64,000 bases of DNA, taken from a bacterium. GTDB taxonomy: Bacteria > Cyanobacteriota > Vampirovibrionia > Gastranaerophilales > Gastranaerophilaceae. The translations under genes and the position numbers were made by a program. Position 1 is the stretch's first letter; each line of letters starts with the position of its first letter. Under the pieces are notes generated by a model, which saw only the letters and a list, made by a program, of their open reading frames with translations, had not been told where the DNA came from and did not search any database. Where the stretch lies: assembly GCA_017559905.1 (NCBI GenBank), contig JAFYQF010000002.1, forward strand, positions 1 to 64,000, written 5' to 3'. Shown here piece after piece: positions 10,594 through 17,546 of this stretch.

Positions 10594-10748
10594 GTCTTGA
10601 AAAGATAAAAATATAGCCAAACGGCTAATTGACTAAAAGTATAAACAAGTTTATTATCAATATACAAATCAGGGAGCATCACTTTTTAAATACAAATTTC
10701 AGAGCATAATTTTTGGAAATACAGGGCAATTTAGCACATCAATTTCTA

Positions 10749-10776
10749 TTGACTAAAACAGTTGAAGATATAGAAT
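10749..10776 (+). promoter_or_regulatory. sigma-70-like promoter of the kelch-like array
   Basis: TTGACT at 10749-10754, 16-nt spacer, TAGAAT at 10771-10776, then GGAGG at 10795-10799 before the ATG at 10810. This is housekeeping-like and not the TAGCAAA class. Confidence 0.5.
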
Positions 10777-10809
10777 TGACTTAATACCTTTTATGGAGGC
10801 TATGAAAAA

Positions 10810-12057
10810 ATGAAAAATATTCTTATATTATGCACCATATTATTTCTTGGAATATTAATACTTGCTTACTACCATATTACAGCTAGAGGAATATATACAA
10901 ACGCCTCAAACTTAACTACACCTAGAGCTTATCACTCTTCAATATTAACTTCTGATGGCAATGTTTTTATTACGGGTGGGGTCAACACCCAAAGTTCCTC
11001 TAATTACGAACTAAACTCTTCAGAAATTTTTGATGTTGAAAACAACTCATTCAAAAAATTAGCAAACTCAAATCTAACACATGTTTATCACAAAACTTTT
11101 TTAATGTCTGATGGAAACATCGTTATCGCAGATATTAATGGAATAGAAATTTTTAACCCCAAAACCAATTCGTATAAATTACTAACTTCTAAATTTCTAG
11201 ACAGACACCCAGAATTTGGGAATTATGATTTTGCACTACTTCCAAATGATTTATTGGCAATATTTGGAGGCAGAAAATTCAACAAAACAACAAAAAAACT
11301 TGAAAACATAAATTCCTTTGAAATTATAAATTTAAAAAATGATACAGTAGTTAAAAAATCATCATTTAACAGTAGCGGGATAAGCTTAATTTTAATTAAT
11401 GACAAACTTTTTTTAATAGGTGGAAAAACCATTGACAAAAACAACGAAATTTTGTCTTCAGAAATAAATGTTATGGACACAAAAACTTTCAAAATTTCTA
11501 AATGGGGTAATTTAGCTTTGCCACAAATTAAACCATTTGTTTTTGTTGACAAAAAATCAAACAATTTGGTTGTATTAGGTGGAAAAATTCAAAATGGTTC
11601 ATCAATAATCAATAAAACAAATTATGCAAAATTGACAGGTGCGAACACTTTAGAAATCATTAATTTAGACACAAAAGAAAGTAAAACAAAAAATATACAA
11701 CCAATTTTGACAACAGAAAAAGTCATTGATAACATTATATTAGATTGCACACAGTATTCGGATAATTTATATTGGCTGCAACTAAAATCAACCAACAAAA
11801 ATAATTCTATTCTCTTGAACATCGATACACTAACAAAAGAAAATCTATTTTACAGATTTGAACCAACAACAAGATACAGGTCTAGTAACATAAAAACTAA
11901 AAATGGAATTTTCGTTAGCGGAGGGAAACTCTCTTATGAAGAACCCACTGAATACACAATCTATTCGGAAATAATTCCAGATGCAACGGAAGCTTTTCAA
12001 TATTCTAAAAATGGATTTATTACTAACAAAAATTTTATAATAAAAATCAAAAACTAA
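10810..12057 (+). CDS. membrane-anchored kelch-like beta-propeller protein 1
   Basis: Protein of 415 aa with an N-terminal hydrophobic anchor (about residues 4-21) followed by kelch-like repeats: RAYHSSILTSDGNVFITGG, ALLPNDLLAIFGGRKF, LFLIGGKTIDKNNE and FVDKKSNNLVVLGGK, with regularly spaced GG pairs. A seven-bladed propeller outside the cytoplasmic membrane is likely; the ligand is unknown. ATG 10810 is used because an upstream ATG (10802) stops after three codons. It is the first and most typical member of a five-gene array. The composition is very rich in Asn and Lys. Confidence 0.7.
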   Translation: MKNILILCTILFLGILILAYYHITARGIYTNASNLTTPRAYHSSILTSDGNVFITGGVNTQSSSNYELNSSEIFDVENNSFKKLANSNLTHVYHKTFLMSDGNIVIADINGIEIFNPKTNSYKLLTSKFLDRHPEFGNYDFALLPNDLLAIFGGRKFNKTTKKLENINSFEIINLKNDTVVKKSSFNSSGISLILINDKLFLIGGKTIDKNNEILSSEINVMDTKTFKISKWGNLALPQIKPFVFVDKKSNNLVVLGGKIQNGSSIINKTNYAKLTGANTLEIINLDTKESKTKNIQPILTTEKVIDNIILDCTQYSDNLYWLQLKSTNKNNSILLNIDTLTKENLFYRFEPTTRYRSSNIKTKNGIFVSGGKLSYEEPTEYTIYSEIIPDATEAFQYSKNGFITNKNFIIKIKN

Positions 12058-12102
12058 ATCTTTATAAAAAATTATTGAACACATAAGCCATTAAACAACA
12101 AA

Positions 12103-12159
12103 ATGATATATAGAGATATTGAACACGAAGCTGTATTTAATAACATTATTTTAGATTAA
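12103..12159 (+). pseudogene. 3' remnant of a kelch-like paralogue
   Basis: The frame reads YRDIEHEAVFNNIILD and a stop, matching the C-terminus of the 13372 gene (YGDIEHETVFNNILIDL, stop). It lies just before a copy of the boundary element. It is the tail of a lost paralogue, showing that the array gains and loses members by recombination. Confidence 0.65.
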
Positions 12160-12160
12160 A

Positions 12161-12180
12161 AAAAAGGAGCAAGCTATAAG
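12161..12180 (+). repeat. kelch-array boundary element, copy 1
   Basis: AAAAAGGAGCAAGCTATAAG, related to the copies at about 13353, 14412, 15635 and 17327. The start codon present in the others (CTATGA) is changed to CTATAA here. Confidence 0.7.
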
Positions 12181-12279
12181 ATTTTTATGATAAAATTTGT
12201 ATATAAAGGAGCATTTTATTTTGTTTAAATTTTAAAATATTATAAGGAGAGAATATGACTGGATTAAATGTATTGAAAA
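12163..12279 (+). repeat. 117-bp direct repeat, copy 1 (partner 15636-15752)
   Basis: It matches 15636-15752 over 117 bp with two differences seen (12176 and 12272). It contains the boundary element, a spacer, the AAGGAGAGA ribosome-binding site and the first codons (MTGLNVLK) of two paralogous genes. Near-identity between otherwise diverged genes indicates recent duplication or gene conversion. Confidence 0.9.
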
Positions 12280-13341
12280 GATTTTCATTATTGGCTATTC
12301 TTATTATTTTAGTGTTGGGCTGTGCATATTATTTTACATTCCAATATAAAAAAAAATAATCCTTTAGCATACCAAATCTTTAAAGGTCCTGACTTAAATT
12401 ATCGTCAAGATACAACTCATTCAATAACATTGAACAATGGCAATATTCTATTATTAAATTTACGGTCTTTACACTTACCAACTCAAGCCGAATTATATCA
12501 ACATAAAAACAATCAATTTGTGCAATTACCTGACACTCATTATGACCATAATCAACGTGCACCCCAAAGAACTCTATTTATACAAAACAAAAACAAAGTA
12601 TACCTTATTGACCAAAACCCTCTAGAATACTTTGACACAGAAACAAATTCTTTTATCAAACTAGACATATGTATAGCACACGCTAACTGCAACAACAAAG
12701 AAATTAACAACAATAAAGAATTTGCGATAAAGGCATATAATTACAACAATAAAGTTTTATATAGTTTCCCTTTTAGCGACACGAAAAGTCAACAATTATT
12801 CCTTTATGATTTAGATACAAACACAACACAAAAGCTTCCACCGTTGACAGAAAACTTACAAGCTTATGATATTCTAATAACCAACGATGATAAAATCATT
12901 GTTTTTAACGGGAAATTAAATGGTGCAACAACAATGACTGCAGAAATTTATGATCCTAAACTTAATAAATTTTTGAAATACAACGATTGGATTTATATAC
13001 CATTCAGGGATATTCAATTTAAGTTGAATAATAGTATTATAACCAAGCTTAACAAATATGAATACAATAAATCCACAGGCAAAATAGATAAAAAAACACG
13101 AAAATCATTTGATAAATTTCCAAATGAATTGATATTAAACAATAGATATTCATTATTTTTCAACAACAAAAAAACGCTTCTATATGACTATGAATTAGAA
13201 AAAACACTCGAAGGAGCAAACTTACTACATCCTATAGATATATATTCAGGAGTGTTGGAATTAGATAAAAATACATTTTTAATATCAAATTCTAGATATC
13301 ATAACTACTCATCAAGAAAAACACAAATATTAAAATTTTAA
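12255..13341 (+). CDS. kelch-like protein 2, frameshifted at an A9 tract
   Basis: Two frames together make one expected protein. ATG 12255 (AAGGAGAGA 5 nt upstream) encodes MTGLNVLKRF, then a hydrophobic anchor ending LVLGCAYYF (lipobox-like), and stops at 12357 straight after nine A (12348-12356). The frame beginning in the same tract continues KNNPLAYQIFKG for about 330 residues of kelch-like sequence (TLNNGNILLLNL, EYFDTETNSFIKL, NDDKIIVFNG). Losing one A would restore a single 363-residue protein with the anchor plus propeller layout of its neighbours. It may be phase variation, transcriptional slippage, a pseudogene or a sequence error. A GTG at 12322 is an unattractive alternative start. 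Confidence 0.6.
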
Positions 13342-13371
13342 CAAAACAAACAAAAAAGGAGCAAAGCATAT

Positions 13372-14406
13372 ATGTTAGAAACACTTTTAATTTGTATTTT
13401 AAGTTTTTTTCAATTTATTTTTGAAACTATAGACAACAATACTCCAGCTACAAAGAACTTTCTTAAAACAGTTCAACCACAAATAGAATATTCACAACTC
13501 GCTGAATTAAAAATTCCGAGAACAAATTTTTCAGTAATACAAAATCAAAATAACAATTTACTTTTTATTGGTAATACAAATTCTTTTGAATTCTATGACG
13601 CAAATAAAAACCAAATGACAATCCTTAATACAAATTGCCCATTTGATTTATACAACAACGAACCCTATTTAACAGATAACAATAACATCTTAATTTTTTC
13701 CCAAAATGGAATCGTAGAATTCAACCAAGAAACATCTGACTGTAACTTAAAAACAAAAATTGATAACACTCATACATTAAAAACAATCAAAATTGATAAT
13801 AATAACTATTTACTAGTAAAAACAAAATCCCTAAAAAATGAAAATATTCAAAGCTTAAGTTTATACAATTCAAAGTCTAATAATGTAAAAAATATCAAAG
13901 AAATCAAACAGAATGATTTACTCTGGTCTGGAGTTTTGACTAAAATTGGTGATGACCAAATTTTTATTCACAACAACAATCAAACAGAAACTCTTGGTGA
14001 AATCTACAATCTAAAAACACACAAGCTAACCTCTGTAACACCTCAAAATATCAAAATTTTTGACATAAACTCTCCAATACTATTTGAACGAAAATTATAT
14101 AACAATAATTCTAAAACATTCATAAATTTTGACGAATTAATAAACAACAAATGGAAACCAATAATTGTAAAAGACAACTTTGTTTATTTTAGCAGACTAA
14201 AATCTAGCACAAACAAAACCGTAACAGAATTTGGAAAATTAAACATTGAAACTGAAAATTTTGAAAGACTCGGATACATACCGTATATGATAAATCCAAA
14301 ATATACTTATTATTTGAATAAGAATAAGCTTTTGTTTGTAACAAGAGGCAAATATGGAGATATTGAACACGAAACAGTATTTAATAACATTCTTATAGAT
14401 TTATAA
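13372..14406 (+). CDS. kelch-like beta-propeller protein 3
   Basis: Protein of 344 aa with a hydrophobic N-terminus (residues 2-20) and degenerate propeller repeats (NNLLFIGNTNSFEFYD, NNILIFSQNGIVEFN, NNYLLVKTKS, IHNNNQTETLGEIYNLKTHKL). The GG pairs typical of kelch are mostly lost. The start lies directly at a diverged boundary element (AAAAAAGGAGCAAAGCATATATG). Its C-terminal residues are duplicated as the remnant at 12103. It is Asn-rich (about one residue in six), like the other members. Function unknown. Confidence 0.65.
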   Translation: MLETLLICILSFFQFIFETIDNNTPATKNFLKTVQPQIEYSQLAELKIPRTNFSVIQNQNNNLLFIGNTNSFEFYDANKNQMTILNTNCPFDLYNNEPYLTDNNNILIFSQNGIVEFNQETSDCNLKTKIDNTHTLKTIKIDNNNYLLVKTKSLKNENIQSLSLYNSKSNNVKNIKEIKQNDLLWSGVLTKIGDDQIFIHNNNQTETLGEIYNLKTHKLTSVTPQNIKIFDINSPILFERKLYNNNSKTFINFDELINNKWKPIIVKDNFVYFSRLKSSTNKTVTEFGKLNIETENFERLGYIPYMINPKYTYYLNKNKLLFVTRGKYGDIEHETVFNNILIDL

Positions 14407-14411
14407 AAACA

Positions 14412-14430
14412 AAAAAGGAGCAAGCTATGA
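14412..14430 (+). repeat. kelch-array boundary element, copy 3
   Basis: AAAAAGGAGCAAGCTATGA at the head of the 15-codon mini-ORF. A diverged copy 2 precedes the 13372 gene. Confidence 0.75.
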
Positions 14431-14474
14431 AAAACATTATCACAATATTGGGTATCAAGAGGATTAAACTATGA
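14427..14474 (+). CDS. 15-codon mini-ORF coupled to the next kelch-like gene
   Basis: ATG inside the boundary element opens MKNIITILGIKRIKL, whose TGA overlaps the ATG of the next gene (ATGA at 14471-14474). It resembles the start of the 10810 gene (MKNILIL) and may be a leftover 5' end. The overlap would allow translational coupling. Confidence 0.4.
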   Translation: MKNIITILGIKRIKL

Positions 14475-15652
14475 ATATTAAAAAGATTTTATTATTAATT
14501 ATTGTTGGCATTATAGTTTTGACACTATTTTTATTTGGTGCATATACTTACACTCAAGGACATTTCAAAAAAATATCATTTGATAACAAAAATATTTTTA
14601 GAATTAACAAAATTTATAAATTTAATGATAAGCTAGTATTACTTGATTATCAAAACAACATATACTACTTATTAATCAAACAAAATAAAGCTTTTGTTGA
14701 AAAATATCCATACCCTACTGCTGAATTAATGGTAGAAGAACCTATCAGAAAAAAATTTTCAACAAAAAATCCTCTAACCCAAAATATAAAAATAGACAAT
14801 GATAAAATATTTTTCTCAAATTTAGATGCTGAACGCAATGCTAATGCAAAATTTTATTTATTAAACATAAACGATGGAAAAATTAAACAATATCCATCTC
14901 CAAATGAATTAAAAAAAGCTTTTAATCAACCAAAAATTTTTAATTTTAACAACAGTACCTTACTTATATATATTAGCTCTTCAAATCCTTCTGATAAAAA
15001 AATCCACCTTTTAGATTTGAAAAATGATAAATTAACGACTCCAAACAGTGCTGAACCAGATATTTTAGCCAATTTTAATAGAGATTCCATTGCCATCAAT
15101 TTAACAAATAATCAATTTTTATTACTACAACAACACAAAGACGAAAAATCTTATTTATTTGATAACAATAACTATTATTTAAAAGAAATCAAATTACCTA
15201 TCACAGTAGCTGATTCTTCAATGTGGAGTAAATATTTTAAAATTATTCCTACTGGTGTTGCTAAATTTTTACTCATTGAATATTCAAAAAGTGATGATAT
15301 TAACTATATTACAACTTCAACTTATAAAAATGATAAAATTACTCACATTACAACCCATAAATTCCCAAATCTAAAATTTCCATTACATACTGCAACATTT
15401 GCTAAACTAAATGATAATGAATATCTAATCATCGGTGGATTAAGAGGGATTCCTGGTCTTACTTTAAGATACATTAACAACGCCTACATCCTAAATACAC
15501 AAACAATGAAACTGAAAAGAATAATGAACTTAAGGCAGGTATTTAGTAACCCTGAAATTATAGTAATTAATGAAAACAAAGCACTAATATTAGAACAAAA
15601 AACAGATGGCTATGAGCACACAATAGGAATTTTTGAAAGGAGCAAGCTATGA
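14471..15652 (+). CDS. membrane-anchored kelch-like protein 4
   Basis: Protein of 393 aa: an N-terminal transmembrane anchor (about residues 5-27), then propeller-like repeats (FNDKLVLLDYQNNIYYL, KIHLLDLKNDKLTT, NNQFLLLQQHKDE, KLNDNEYLIIGGLRG). Only the last retains a GG pair. The gene ends inside a boundary element: the final codons GAAAGGAGCAAGCTATGA translate as ERSKL stop. Its original 3' end was therefore probably replaced by recombination at the element. Confidence 0.65.
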   Translation: MNIKKILLLIIVGIIVLTLFLFGAYTYTQGHFKKISFDNKNIFRINKIYKFNDKLVLLDYQNNIYYLLIKQNKAFVEKYPYPTAELMVEEPIRKKFSTKNPLTQNIKIDNDKIFFSNLDAERNANAKFYLLNINDGKIKQYPSPNELKKAFNQPKIFNFNNSTLLIYISSSNPSDKKIHLLDLKNDKLTTPNSAEPDILANFNRDSIAINLTNNQFLLLQQHKDEKSYLFDNNNYYLKEIKLPITVADSSMWSKYFKIIPTGVAKFLLIEYSKSDDINYITTSTYKNDKITHITTHKFPNLKFPLHTATFAKLNDNEYLIIGGLRGIPGLTLRYINNAYILNTQTMKLKRIMNLRQVFSNPEIIVINENKALILEQKTDGYEHTIGIFERSKL

Positions 15653-15752
15653 GATTTTTATGATAAAATTTGTATATAAAGGAGCATTTTATTTTGTTTA
15701 AATTTTAAAATATTATAAGGAGAGAATATGACTGGATTAAATGTCTTGAAAA
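15636..15752 (+). repeat. 117-bp direct repeat, copy 2 (partner 12163-12279)
   Basis: Second copy of the repeat joining boundary element, spacer, ribosome-binding site and first codons. Here it joins the end of kelch-like gene 4 to the start of gene 5. Confidence 0.9.
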
Positions 15753-17317
15753 AGATTTGGGTTAAAATTTGGGGTGAAGATATTCCGCCTCAACAAGAGA
15801 TTTTCGAAAACAAAAATGCCAATCTCTTTAAATCTTTCTATACCAAAATTAGAAATAAATTAGTTTTTAGAAGACTTGCTATCGTTCTTTTTTTACTAAT
15901 TGCAACTTGTTTGACTTTCAACTATTTAAAATATACCAAATTCTTTGCTTGTCTTGGCAAAGATGTTTGTATTTATAGAGGTCCTAAATTGGCATCTCCT
16001 AAAAATCCTATATCTTTAATTACAGATACCACTGGATACATAAAACTAAAAGATGGAAATATTATTTGTTTAGTAATTAGACCTACAGACCCTTATAATT
16101 ACAATTATCACAAATTCATATCTTTATTCTCTATTTTAATACCATCAAAACCTATGTACTACTCTAGTAGCATAGCAGAGAAAAAGCATTACATACTAAA
16201 TCTTCTATTTGAGAATTTCTTGACTTTTTCAGATAAAAATTTATATAAATTTTTTGGAGATAATCATAAAGCCGAATCCGAATACTTTGACACAAAAACA
16301 AATAGTTTCTATAAAATAACTAATCCAGTGTTACCAGAACGGACAATCAATCTTGAATATACAACCAATTCTAATAGTGAAATTATTCTTTACAATATTG
16401 ACCTACTGGTTAAAAATAAAGAAATTAAACTTAACGAAAAAATAATATATAATTACAAAACTCAAACTCAAAGAACTGAGCCCGAAACTATTTTTAACAA
16501 GATTAACGGGGAAATAATTGCAAGCAAAAGAATTAATCATAATACCAATTTGTATACTATTAAAGGCAAAGATTCTAGCATAAAACTTTATCGCCACGAC
16601 ACTGACAAATGGACTCTAACTGAAGTCCCTAACAATTTAGATTTAGTTTTAGACTTGCAAAAATCAATTATGTTGTTTAATGGAAACGTTGCAATTGCAT
16701 CTAAACACAACTCCAAACCTTGTAGCAAAACTAAAATTTGTGAACCTGTTGTTTTGTATGATGTTAAAAGCAACAAATTAATTGCAAACAATGTTGAATA
16801 CAAAGATTTTGAAGATAATTTATTACACTTGGCTAAACCAGATGGTACAGAACAATTTTTTGTAAGACATATGCATTGGGGCATGATTTACAATGATAAT
16901 ATAGGATATGCACACGTTGATATGAGTGATATAGATGCCTTATTAAGAAAATATACAAATTCTAGCATCCATGACAAACCATTTGTATACGCAATAACAC
17001 CTACAAAATATTTAATATGGCCTTCTATAATAGATATTCATTCTACACTACACTTCGGAGAAGTAAAGCATCCTAAAGAATACAAACGAACAATCTTCTA
17101 TGATGCAGAAAACGGTATTGCCAAAAGAGGTCCAGATTTCATATATCTACCAAAACTAGGTTATGATTTCGAAAAACTTTCTTCACAAATTTCATTAGAT
17201 GAGAATAAAGCTATATCTATTGGGGAAGTAAATTACCTTTATCATGAGAACCACGAATCAATCTACGCATACAGCATACCACACGAATACACACAAATTA
17301 TAGAAGTTAAAAAGTAA
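15728..17317 (+). CDS. membrane-anchored kelch-like protein 5, long form
   Basis: At 529 aa this is the longest array member. It has a cytoplasmic N-terminus (1-46), one transmembrane helix (about 47-66, LAIVLFLLIATCLTFNYL), then an external domain with weak propeller repeats (GYIKLKDGNIICLVI, SEYFDTKTNSFYKI, LFNGNVAIASK). It has several cysteines (FFACLGKDVCIY, KPCSKTKICEP) absent from the other members. It shares its upstream region and first eight residues with kelch-like gene 2 through the 117-bp repeat. AAGGAGAGA lies 5 nt before the ATG. Confidence 0.65.
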   Translation: MTGLNVLKKIWVKIWGEDIPPQQEIFENKNANLFKSFYTKIRNKLVFRRLAIVLFLLIATCLTFNYLKYTKFFACLGKDVCIYRGPKLASPKNPISLITDTTGYIKLKDGNIICLVIRPTDPYNYNYHKFISLFSILIPSKPMYYSSSIAEKKHYILNLLFENFLTFSDKNLYKFFGDNHKAESEYFDTKTNSFYKITNPVLPERTINLEYTTNSNSEIILYNIDLLVKNKEIKLNEKIIYNYKTQTQRTEPETIFNKINGEIIASKRINHNTNLYTIKGKDSSIKLYRHDTDKWTLTEVPNNLDLVLDLQKSIMLFNGNVAIASKHNSKPCSKTKICEPVVLYDVKSNKLIANNVEYKDFEDNLLHLAKPDGTEQFFVRHMHWGMIYNDNIGYAHVDMSDIDALLRKYTNSSIHDKPFVYAITPTKYLIWPSIIDIHSTLHFGEVKHPKEYKRTIFYDAENGIAKRGPDFIYLPKLGYDFEKLSSQISLDENKAISIGEVNYLYHENHESIYAYSIPHEYTQIIEVKK

Positions 17318-17326
17318 TAAAAAAAC

Positions 17327-17345
17327 AAAAAAGGAGCAAGCTATG
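17327..17345 (+). repeat. kelch-array boundary element, copy 5 (orphan)
   Basis: AAAAAAGGAGCAAGCTATGA-like element after the last full array gene, followed only by short frames. It marks the right edge of the array. Confidence 0.7.
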
Positions 17346-17423
17346 AGTATATTAACAAACATTAAAGGGAAATTAACAATCAAAAATGCAAGAGCTCAAA
17401 TTGCAAAAAGAATTTGGCTATAG
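17343..17423 (+). CDS. 26-aa ORF behind the last boundary element
   Basis: ATG in the element opens MSILTNIKGKLTIKNARAQ and stops at 17423. An overlapping frame, 17386-17484, encodes 32 residues ending INMTLIANSWSDVA. Both may be remnants of a deleted gene rather than functional peptides. Confidence 0.3.
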   Translation: MSILTNIKGKLTIKNARAQIAKRIWL

Positions 17424-17515
17424 TGATTACAATTCACTAATAAATATGACTCTTATCGCTAATTCTTGGTCGGATGTCGCTTAAATATTAATTGTATGAA
17501 TATTTTATACAACTT

Positions 17516-17546
17516 AAAACCCACCAATTTATAATCGGTGGGTTTT
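17516..17546. terminator. terminator, tRNA-Ser side
   Basis: AAAACCCACC / GGTGGGTTTT inverted repeat with A and T tracts on both sides, directly downstream of the reverse-strand tRNA-Ser. It could also end transcription from the kelch-like array. Confidence 0.8.

Follow-up and report, generated by a model that had tools for sequence, protein, structure and literature searches.

In the silent-cassette antigenic variation of Neisseria (pilE/pilS), a single expression locus is served by 5'-truncated silent donors. The T7SS immunity arrays of EsaG in Staphylococcus aureus and of TipC in Streptococcus recombine between conserved blocks and change in copy number, with TipC genes being built of conserved 5' and 3' blocks around a variable middle (PMC9484751). 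In Bacteroidales, rAID arrays combine conserved intergenic motifs with orphan immunity genes and need a linked tyrosine recombinase (PMC12247911). The array described here lies within a window of 64,000 nucleotides (the whole stretch of DNA that was analysed), on contig 21 of a 1.84-Mb AT-rich draft genome (G000), and is probably a row of tandem, fast-diverging, membrane-anchored kelch paralogues, whose shared front ends would offer the patches of homology at which ordinary homologous recombination takes place.

Positions 10810-17317 of the window are filled by five co-oriented kelch-type genes of 340-530 codons, named A to E, which lie on the + strand, as do all features given below, and are accompanied by near-identical boundary elements, in agreement with the original prediction of a five-gene array. 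GC content is low (26.7% vs 32.5% in the window), and no phage genes lie beside the array. Phage-integrase-type recombinases were absent from its contig, the six found in the genome being located on other contigs. The array adjoins a tRNA-Ser gene, and its reading as an island with a duplicated tRNA end was dropped, since no further copy of the tRNA 3' end was found elsewhere in the window.

Gene A (10810..12057) encodes a 415-aa kelch propeller with an N-terminal hydrophobic anchor, for which the Pfam call was strong (Kelch_6, 1.2e-11), and the call for the body of the frameshifted gene B (12255..13341) was marginal, just over the cut-off (Kelch_6, 8.7e-6). Against a family profile constructed from sequences outside the window, with about 400 shuffles each as controls (profile thresholds and ORF calls being mechanical), B scored 64 bits, C (13372..14406; 344 aa) 30 bits and D (14471..15652; 393 aa) 38 bits, the best shuffle for B being 2.5 or less, a ceiling shared by C and D, whose shuffles were all negative. 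An AlphaFold model of D (pLDDT 45) had the KLHL3 kelch as its best Foldseek match (2.3e-6), so that this low-confidence model resembles kelch propellers; the model of E was likewise of low confidence (pLDDT 33). Gene E (15728..17317; 529 aa), a divergent member with a cytosolic N-terminal segment followed by a TM segment, was the weakest of the five, with a profile score of 14 bits vs 10.5 for its best shuffle, and has a homologue (1.3e-17) in G184, a kelch-profile protein of 534 aa, with which it has in common the N-terminal segment and a CxGKDVCIYRGPK motif. Accordingly, the earlier description of all five genes as kelch-like stands firmly for A, marginally for B, through the family profile only for C and D, and through homology to a kelch-family protein only for E.

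Gene B starts at 12255, the listed ORF start (12322) being only a late GTG. Its first 34 codons end at 12359 and the body continues in a different frame, broken at an A9 tract (12348..12356, read from the sequence), which in this one genome is a possible slippage or phase-variation site, B being otherwise a dead gene. A hydrophobic segment was present near each N-terminus, that of B on the out-of-frame 5' piece, which makes an anchored, extracytoplasmic propeller the likely topology, presumably facing the periplasm or the cell surface. As to the claim that the array diversifies an extracellular protein, these segments fit a membrane-anchored extracytoplasmic protein, and we infer, rather than observe, diversification as its selected purpose.

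A short boundary element recurs along the array, with copies in each of the states claimed at first (intact, diverged, mutated in the start codon at 12161 and orphaned at 17327). Before A, a degenerate copy (GGAG-GCTATGA, 10795..10813, read from the sequence) has an ATG that opens MKK and a stop, the TGA of which overlaps A's ATG. The copy at 12160..12179, found by repeat and motif search, has one mismatch, the change of ATG to ATA, by which the element at B lost its ATG. A diverged copy (AAAAAAGGAGCAAAGCATATATG, 13352..13374), recognized by sequence and junction comparison, precedes C, and there alone does the element's ATG coincide with a kelch gene start. From the intact copy at 14411..14430 (exact match) a 15-codon leader ORF is opened (MKNIITILGIKRIKL and a stop; 14427..14474, read from the sequence), which is out of frame with D and whose TGA overlaps D's ATG (14471) as ATGA. 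The next copy (15633..15652; exact 17-nt core, 3 mismatches at the 5' end) overlaps the stop of D, its ATGA being D's own stop and opening MRFL and a stop, and E starts 76 nt later with its own ribosome-binding site. At the right edge, an intact orphan element (17327..17346, exact match) opens a 26-codon ORF, and the short overlapping ORFs found there (17343-17423 and 17386-17484, together 17343..17484), for which no homologue was found, are probably a gene remnant.

In most copies, then, what begins at the element's ATG is a tiny leader ORF rather than the next kelch gene, and the proposal that the element holds the next gene's start codon is right only for the diverged copy at C, and wrong for A, B, D and E. 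A genome-wide search allowing 3 mismatches at most placed all four good copies within the array, and the only other matches were two, each with 3 mismatches, on other contigs; the 18-nt core, with 1 mismatch allowed, occurred 7 times across 145 other genomes of the family, always singly. The further copies expected elsewhere in the genome were thus not found. Since only unchanged gene content in related strains combined with a lack of further copies was to count against the original prediction, this confinement of the good copies to the array leaves it standing. A reading of the element as an integron attC site was also rejected, as it is a 20-nt translation start with no long palindrome and no integrase nearby, and the features of integron cassettes (attC sites, IntI) were not seen in the array.

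Traces of exchange within the window lie around B. The 117-bp direct repeat described at first was recovered with a measured identity of 98%, its copies covering the leader and first codons of B (12163..12279) and of E (15636..15752). Rightward from the element, the region before B matches that before E over 117-123 nt at 98%, through MTGLNVLK, after which B and E diverge, so that leaders 98% identical precede proteins about 22% identical. On the left side of the element, what precedes B resembles instead the region before D, including a 58-nt C-like tail (12108..12165, 88% identical to 14352-14409), which is the leftover C-terminus of a C-like paralogue lost upstream of B. The D-like and E-like homologies meet inside the element, and the copy at 12160..12179 would be the crossover point of a chimeric B leader; such a junction would be expected after a crossover or conversion at the element, one event that we infer from one sequence. 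Furthermore, the array repeats are not due to chance, since 10700-17520 contains 89 distinct repeated 17-mers, whereas 200 dinucleotide shuffles gave 0.07 on average.

Related loci in the genus g57 provided the comparison between genomes, in a set made up of draft genomes, several of them MAGs, with one genome per species and family names given by similarity only. In tandem kelch paralogues of g57, about 200 nt upstream and the first 80-138 nt of coding sequence are 82-92% identical, and adjacent paralogues have no similarity beyond those first 80-138 coding nt; GC is 24.8% vs 31.2%. At a syntenic locus between a 332-aa gene and a 326-aa ComM-like gene, the upstream flank and leader have 85-98% DNA identity among G203, G306, G236 and G084, ending 96-120 nt inside the kelch ORF, and the four species carry four bodies behind that leader, with at most 38% aa identity. 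Moreover, the bodies of G203 and G306 (the latter copy being disrupted to a 200-aa ORF) are 99% and 97% identical, respectively, to two G236 bodies that lie on the ComM side behind other leaders, in a G236 locus split over two contigs. Elsewhere, a body common to G203 and G236 is 97% identical, with leaders 79% alike, and kelch copy numbers differ between g57 species at three loci. Because the same leader stands before unrelated bodies and the same bodies stand behind other leaders, it is the bodies of this gene family that move, the leaders remaining in place, with the caveat that some joins in drafts and MAGs could be assembly errors, against which it counts that the sequence at the breakpoints is only about 90% identical. 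The expectation of changed gene content at conserved front ends was thus realized for the gene family in g57.

Downstream of most g57 kelch genes there is a palindromic repeat of 85 bp, which was also seen elsewhere (L110 8768-8852, L112 1035-1118, L131 5987-6070 and others); no copy of it was found in the window. An integron attC site was considered and rejected for this repeat, given that the order of its GTTGGGT/ACCCAAC arms is wrong and that copies occur at a distance from kelch genes as well; we treat it as REP or terminator-like.

Under the mechanism we favor, each leader would act as a front end made up of the ribosome-binding site, the tiny leader ORFs and the first codons, and a crossover or gene conversion between leaders, presumably driven by RecA-type recombination, would delete, duplicate or replace the body behind. 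Signals for expression and targeting would thereby be kept at the locus as the extracytoplasmic propeller varied. Relatives in g57 present the body replacement behind a fixed leader at a syntenic locus and the change in gene number at three loci, and the window presents the D/E chimera in the leader of B, the lost-paralogue tail upstream of B and the orphan element at the right edge. The window array fits the g57 pattern and may have been made by the same process, with exchange read here from a single sequence and with shorter leader repeats (20-123 nt vs about 300 nt in g57). Exchange at the conserved front ends, as claimed at first, is supported by the chimeric B junction, placed exactly at the element, and by the leader/body breaks of g57.

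Plain tandem duplication and divergence, with the likeness of the leaders maintained by selection on translation signals and no exchange, would be the simplest alternative; the element indeed combines a ribosome-binding site and a start codon, the overlap of leader ORFs with gene starts suggests a translational coupling worth conserving, and tandem duplication occurs in the family (L101, L109). Nevertheless, we consider it unlikely, given that the 98% identity before such dissimilar proteins includes non-coding sequence, that the leader is conserved even before a frameshifted gene (B) and is chimeric there, and that leader and body histories disagree in g57, which selection on leaders cannot produce. 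A silent-cassette system, in which one expressed gene is fed by silent donors in the manner of pilin or VlsE variation, would account for conserved 5' ends, variable bodies and the body replacement behind a fixed leader in g57, yet appears very improbable, since none of the copies in the window and g57 arrays lacks a leader and start of its own, and no 5'-truncated donors were seen. No split into silent and expressed copies was found in the array, and its promoter scan did not exceed shuffles. The single expression site of the original prediction goes unsupported. Least probable of all is a site-specific recombinase array of the rAID or integron type with the element as its recombination site, for despite the co-oriented low-GC genes, conserved intergenic motifs and adjoining tRNA-Ser gene, as described for rAID (PMC12247911), and an integrase-like ORF and tRNA-like fragment close to the A relative in G003 (by our own reading, with no Pfam match), the array's contig lacks a phage-integrase-type recombinase, the tRNA 3' end is uncopied in the window, and the g57 breakpoints lie inside coding sequence, in a broad homology patch rather than at one site.

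The kelch family, which other Gastranaerophilales carry too, is patchy, being present in 66 of 288 family genomes and 19 of 41 genera. The window array was absent from 13 congeners, where only A matched among the proteins searched (A, D and E), through a relative in G003 that is 44% identical. Besides this relative, a DNA search with the whole locus in 59 relatives returned short AT-rich matches only; a genome contig collection searched with E, and viral contigs searched with A, D and a prophage kelch, gave no match. The close neighborhood of the A relative in G003 (L051 11560-12060) includes a tRNA-like fragment and the integrase-like ORF, the latter cut by the contig end. Six kelch copies lie inside a prophage of G076 (L101 5440-16365), between terminase, head-tail and portal genes, and include a 1.9-kb tandem duplication and mosaic N-termini. 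In G111 (L109 6993-10454), a perfect tandem duplication has left two identical 409-aa kelch genes about 2.2 kb apart. In the literature, we found no paper on kelch genes in Gastranaerophilales or Melainabacteria and none on phase variation in Gastranaerophilales.

Regarding function, in many genera the gene immediately downstream of a kelch gene, in the same orientation, encodes a class-3 lipase or an RTX-type secreted protein (L092, L096, L098, L099, L128, L133, L162, L163, L166, L167, L169 and others), and truncated lipase pieces adjoin some kelch genes (L099, L113, L117). At L169 (1-3532, in G184), a gap of 17 nt separates the E relative from an RTX-like gene downstream of it, and the relative has an N-terminal KIWG..PP motif in common with E. 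In the window genome, no RTX-lipase was found beside the array, and the lipase match was only a weak, genus-wide one, so that the partner is missing there. This linkage, together with divergence and body exchange, gives the family a likeness to orphan immunity genes, and the propellers may act against secreted RTX/class-3 lipases as orphan immunity proteins, or bind them as partners. An immunity-like role is a candidate that we put forward tentatively, a variable binding or adhesion protein being the alternative. More doubtful still is a dedicated, unreported diversification system of Gastranaerophilales, in which kelch proteins would give immunity against interbacterial RTX/class-3 lipases, modules of leader and N-terminus would exchange bodies, and orphan arrays would track the changing lipases of competitors. 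In this context, kelch propellers, little studied in bacteria, become tied to secreted lipases through a testable effector/immunity or binding hypothesis.

Among known systems, phage-borne kelch genes are comparable in that A and the G076 prophage protein both match PHROG 16216, with six copies at L101, and differ in that phage genes flank them there and not the window array. The Neisseria pilE/pilS system is similar in its fixed 5' end, variable body and homologous exchange, but no such arrangement of one expression locus and 5'-truncated silent donors was found here. The rAID arrays are closer in their co-oriented low-GC genes, conserved intergenic motifs, gut bacterial hosts and divergent orphan immunity genes, but have genes of about 100-300 codons and a linked tyrosine recombinase (PMC12247911), which the contig of the window array lacks. 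The best match in working is with the EsaG and TipC arrays, likewise strings of non-identical paralogues in which conserved blocks at the gene ends offer homology for loss, gain and reshuffling of copies (PMC9484751). Tandem non-identical paralogues with conserved blocks are present in the window array; exchange and copy-number change between genomes were seen in g57, the window species being represented by one genome. Here, unlike EsaG and TipC, the fold is a kelch propeller in another phylum, with bodies diverged to 20-25% identity, and any immunity role is putative. In brief, our data point, in a little-studied and largely uncultured gut lineage, to a gene family that swaps bodies, the exchange being seen at a site framed by conserved genes, and indicate that recombination junctions can be marked by a short repeated element of translation start.
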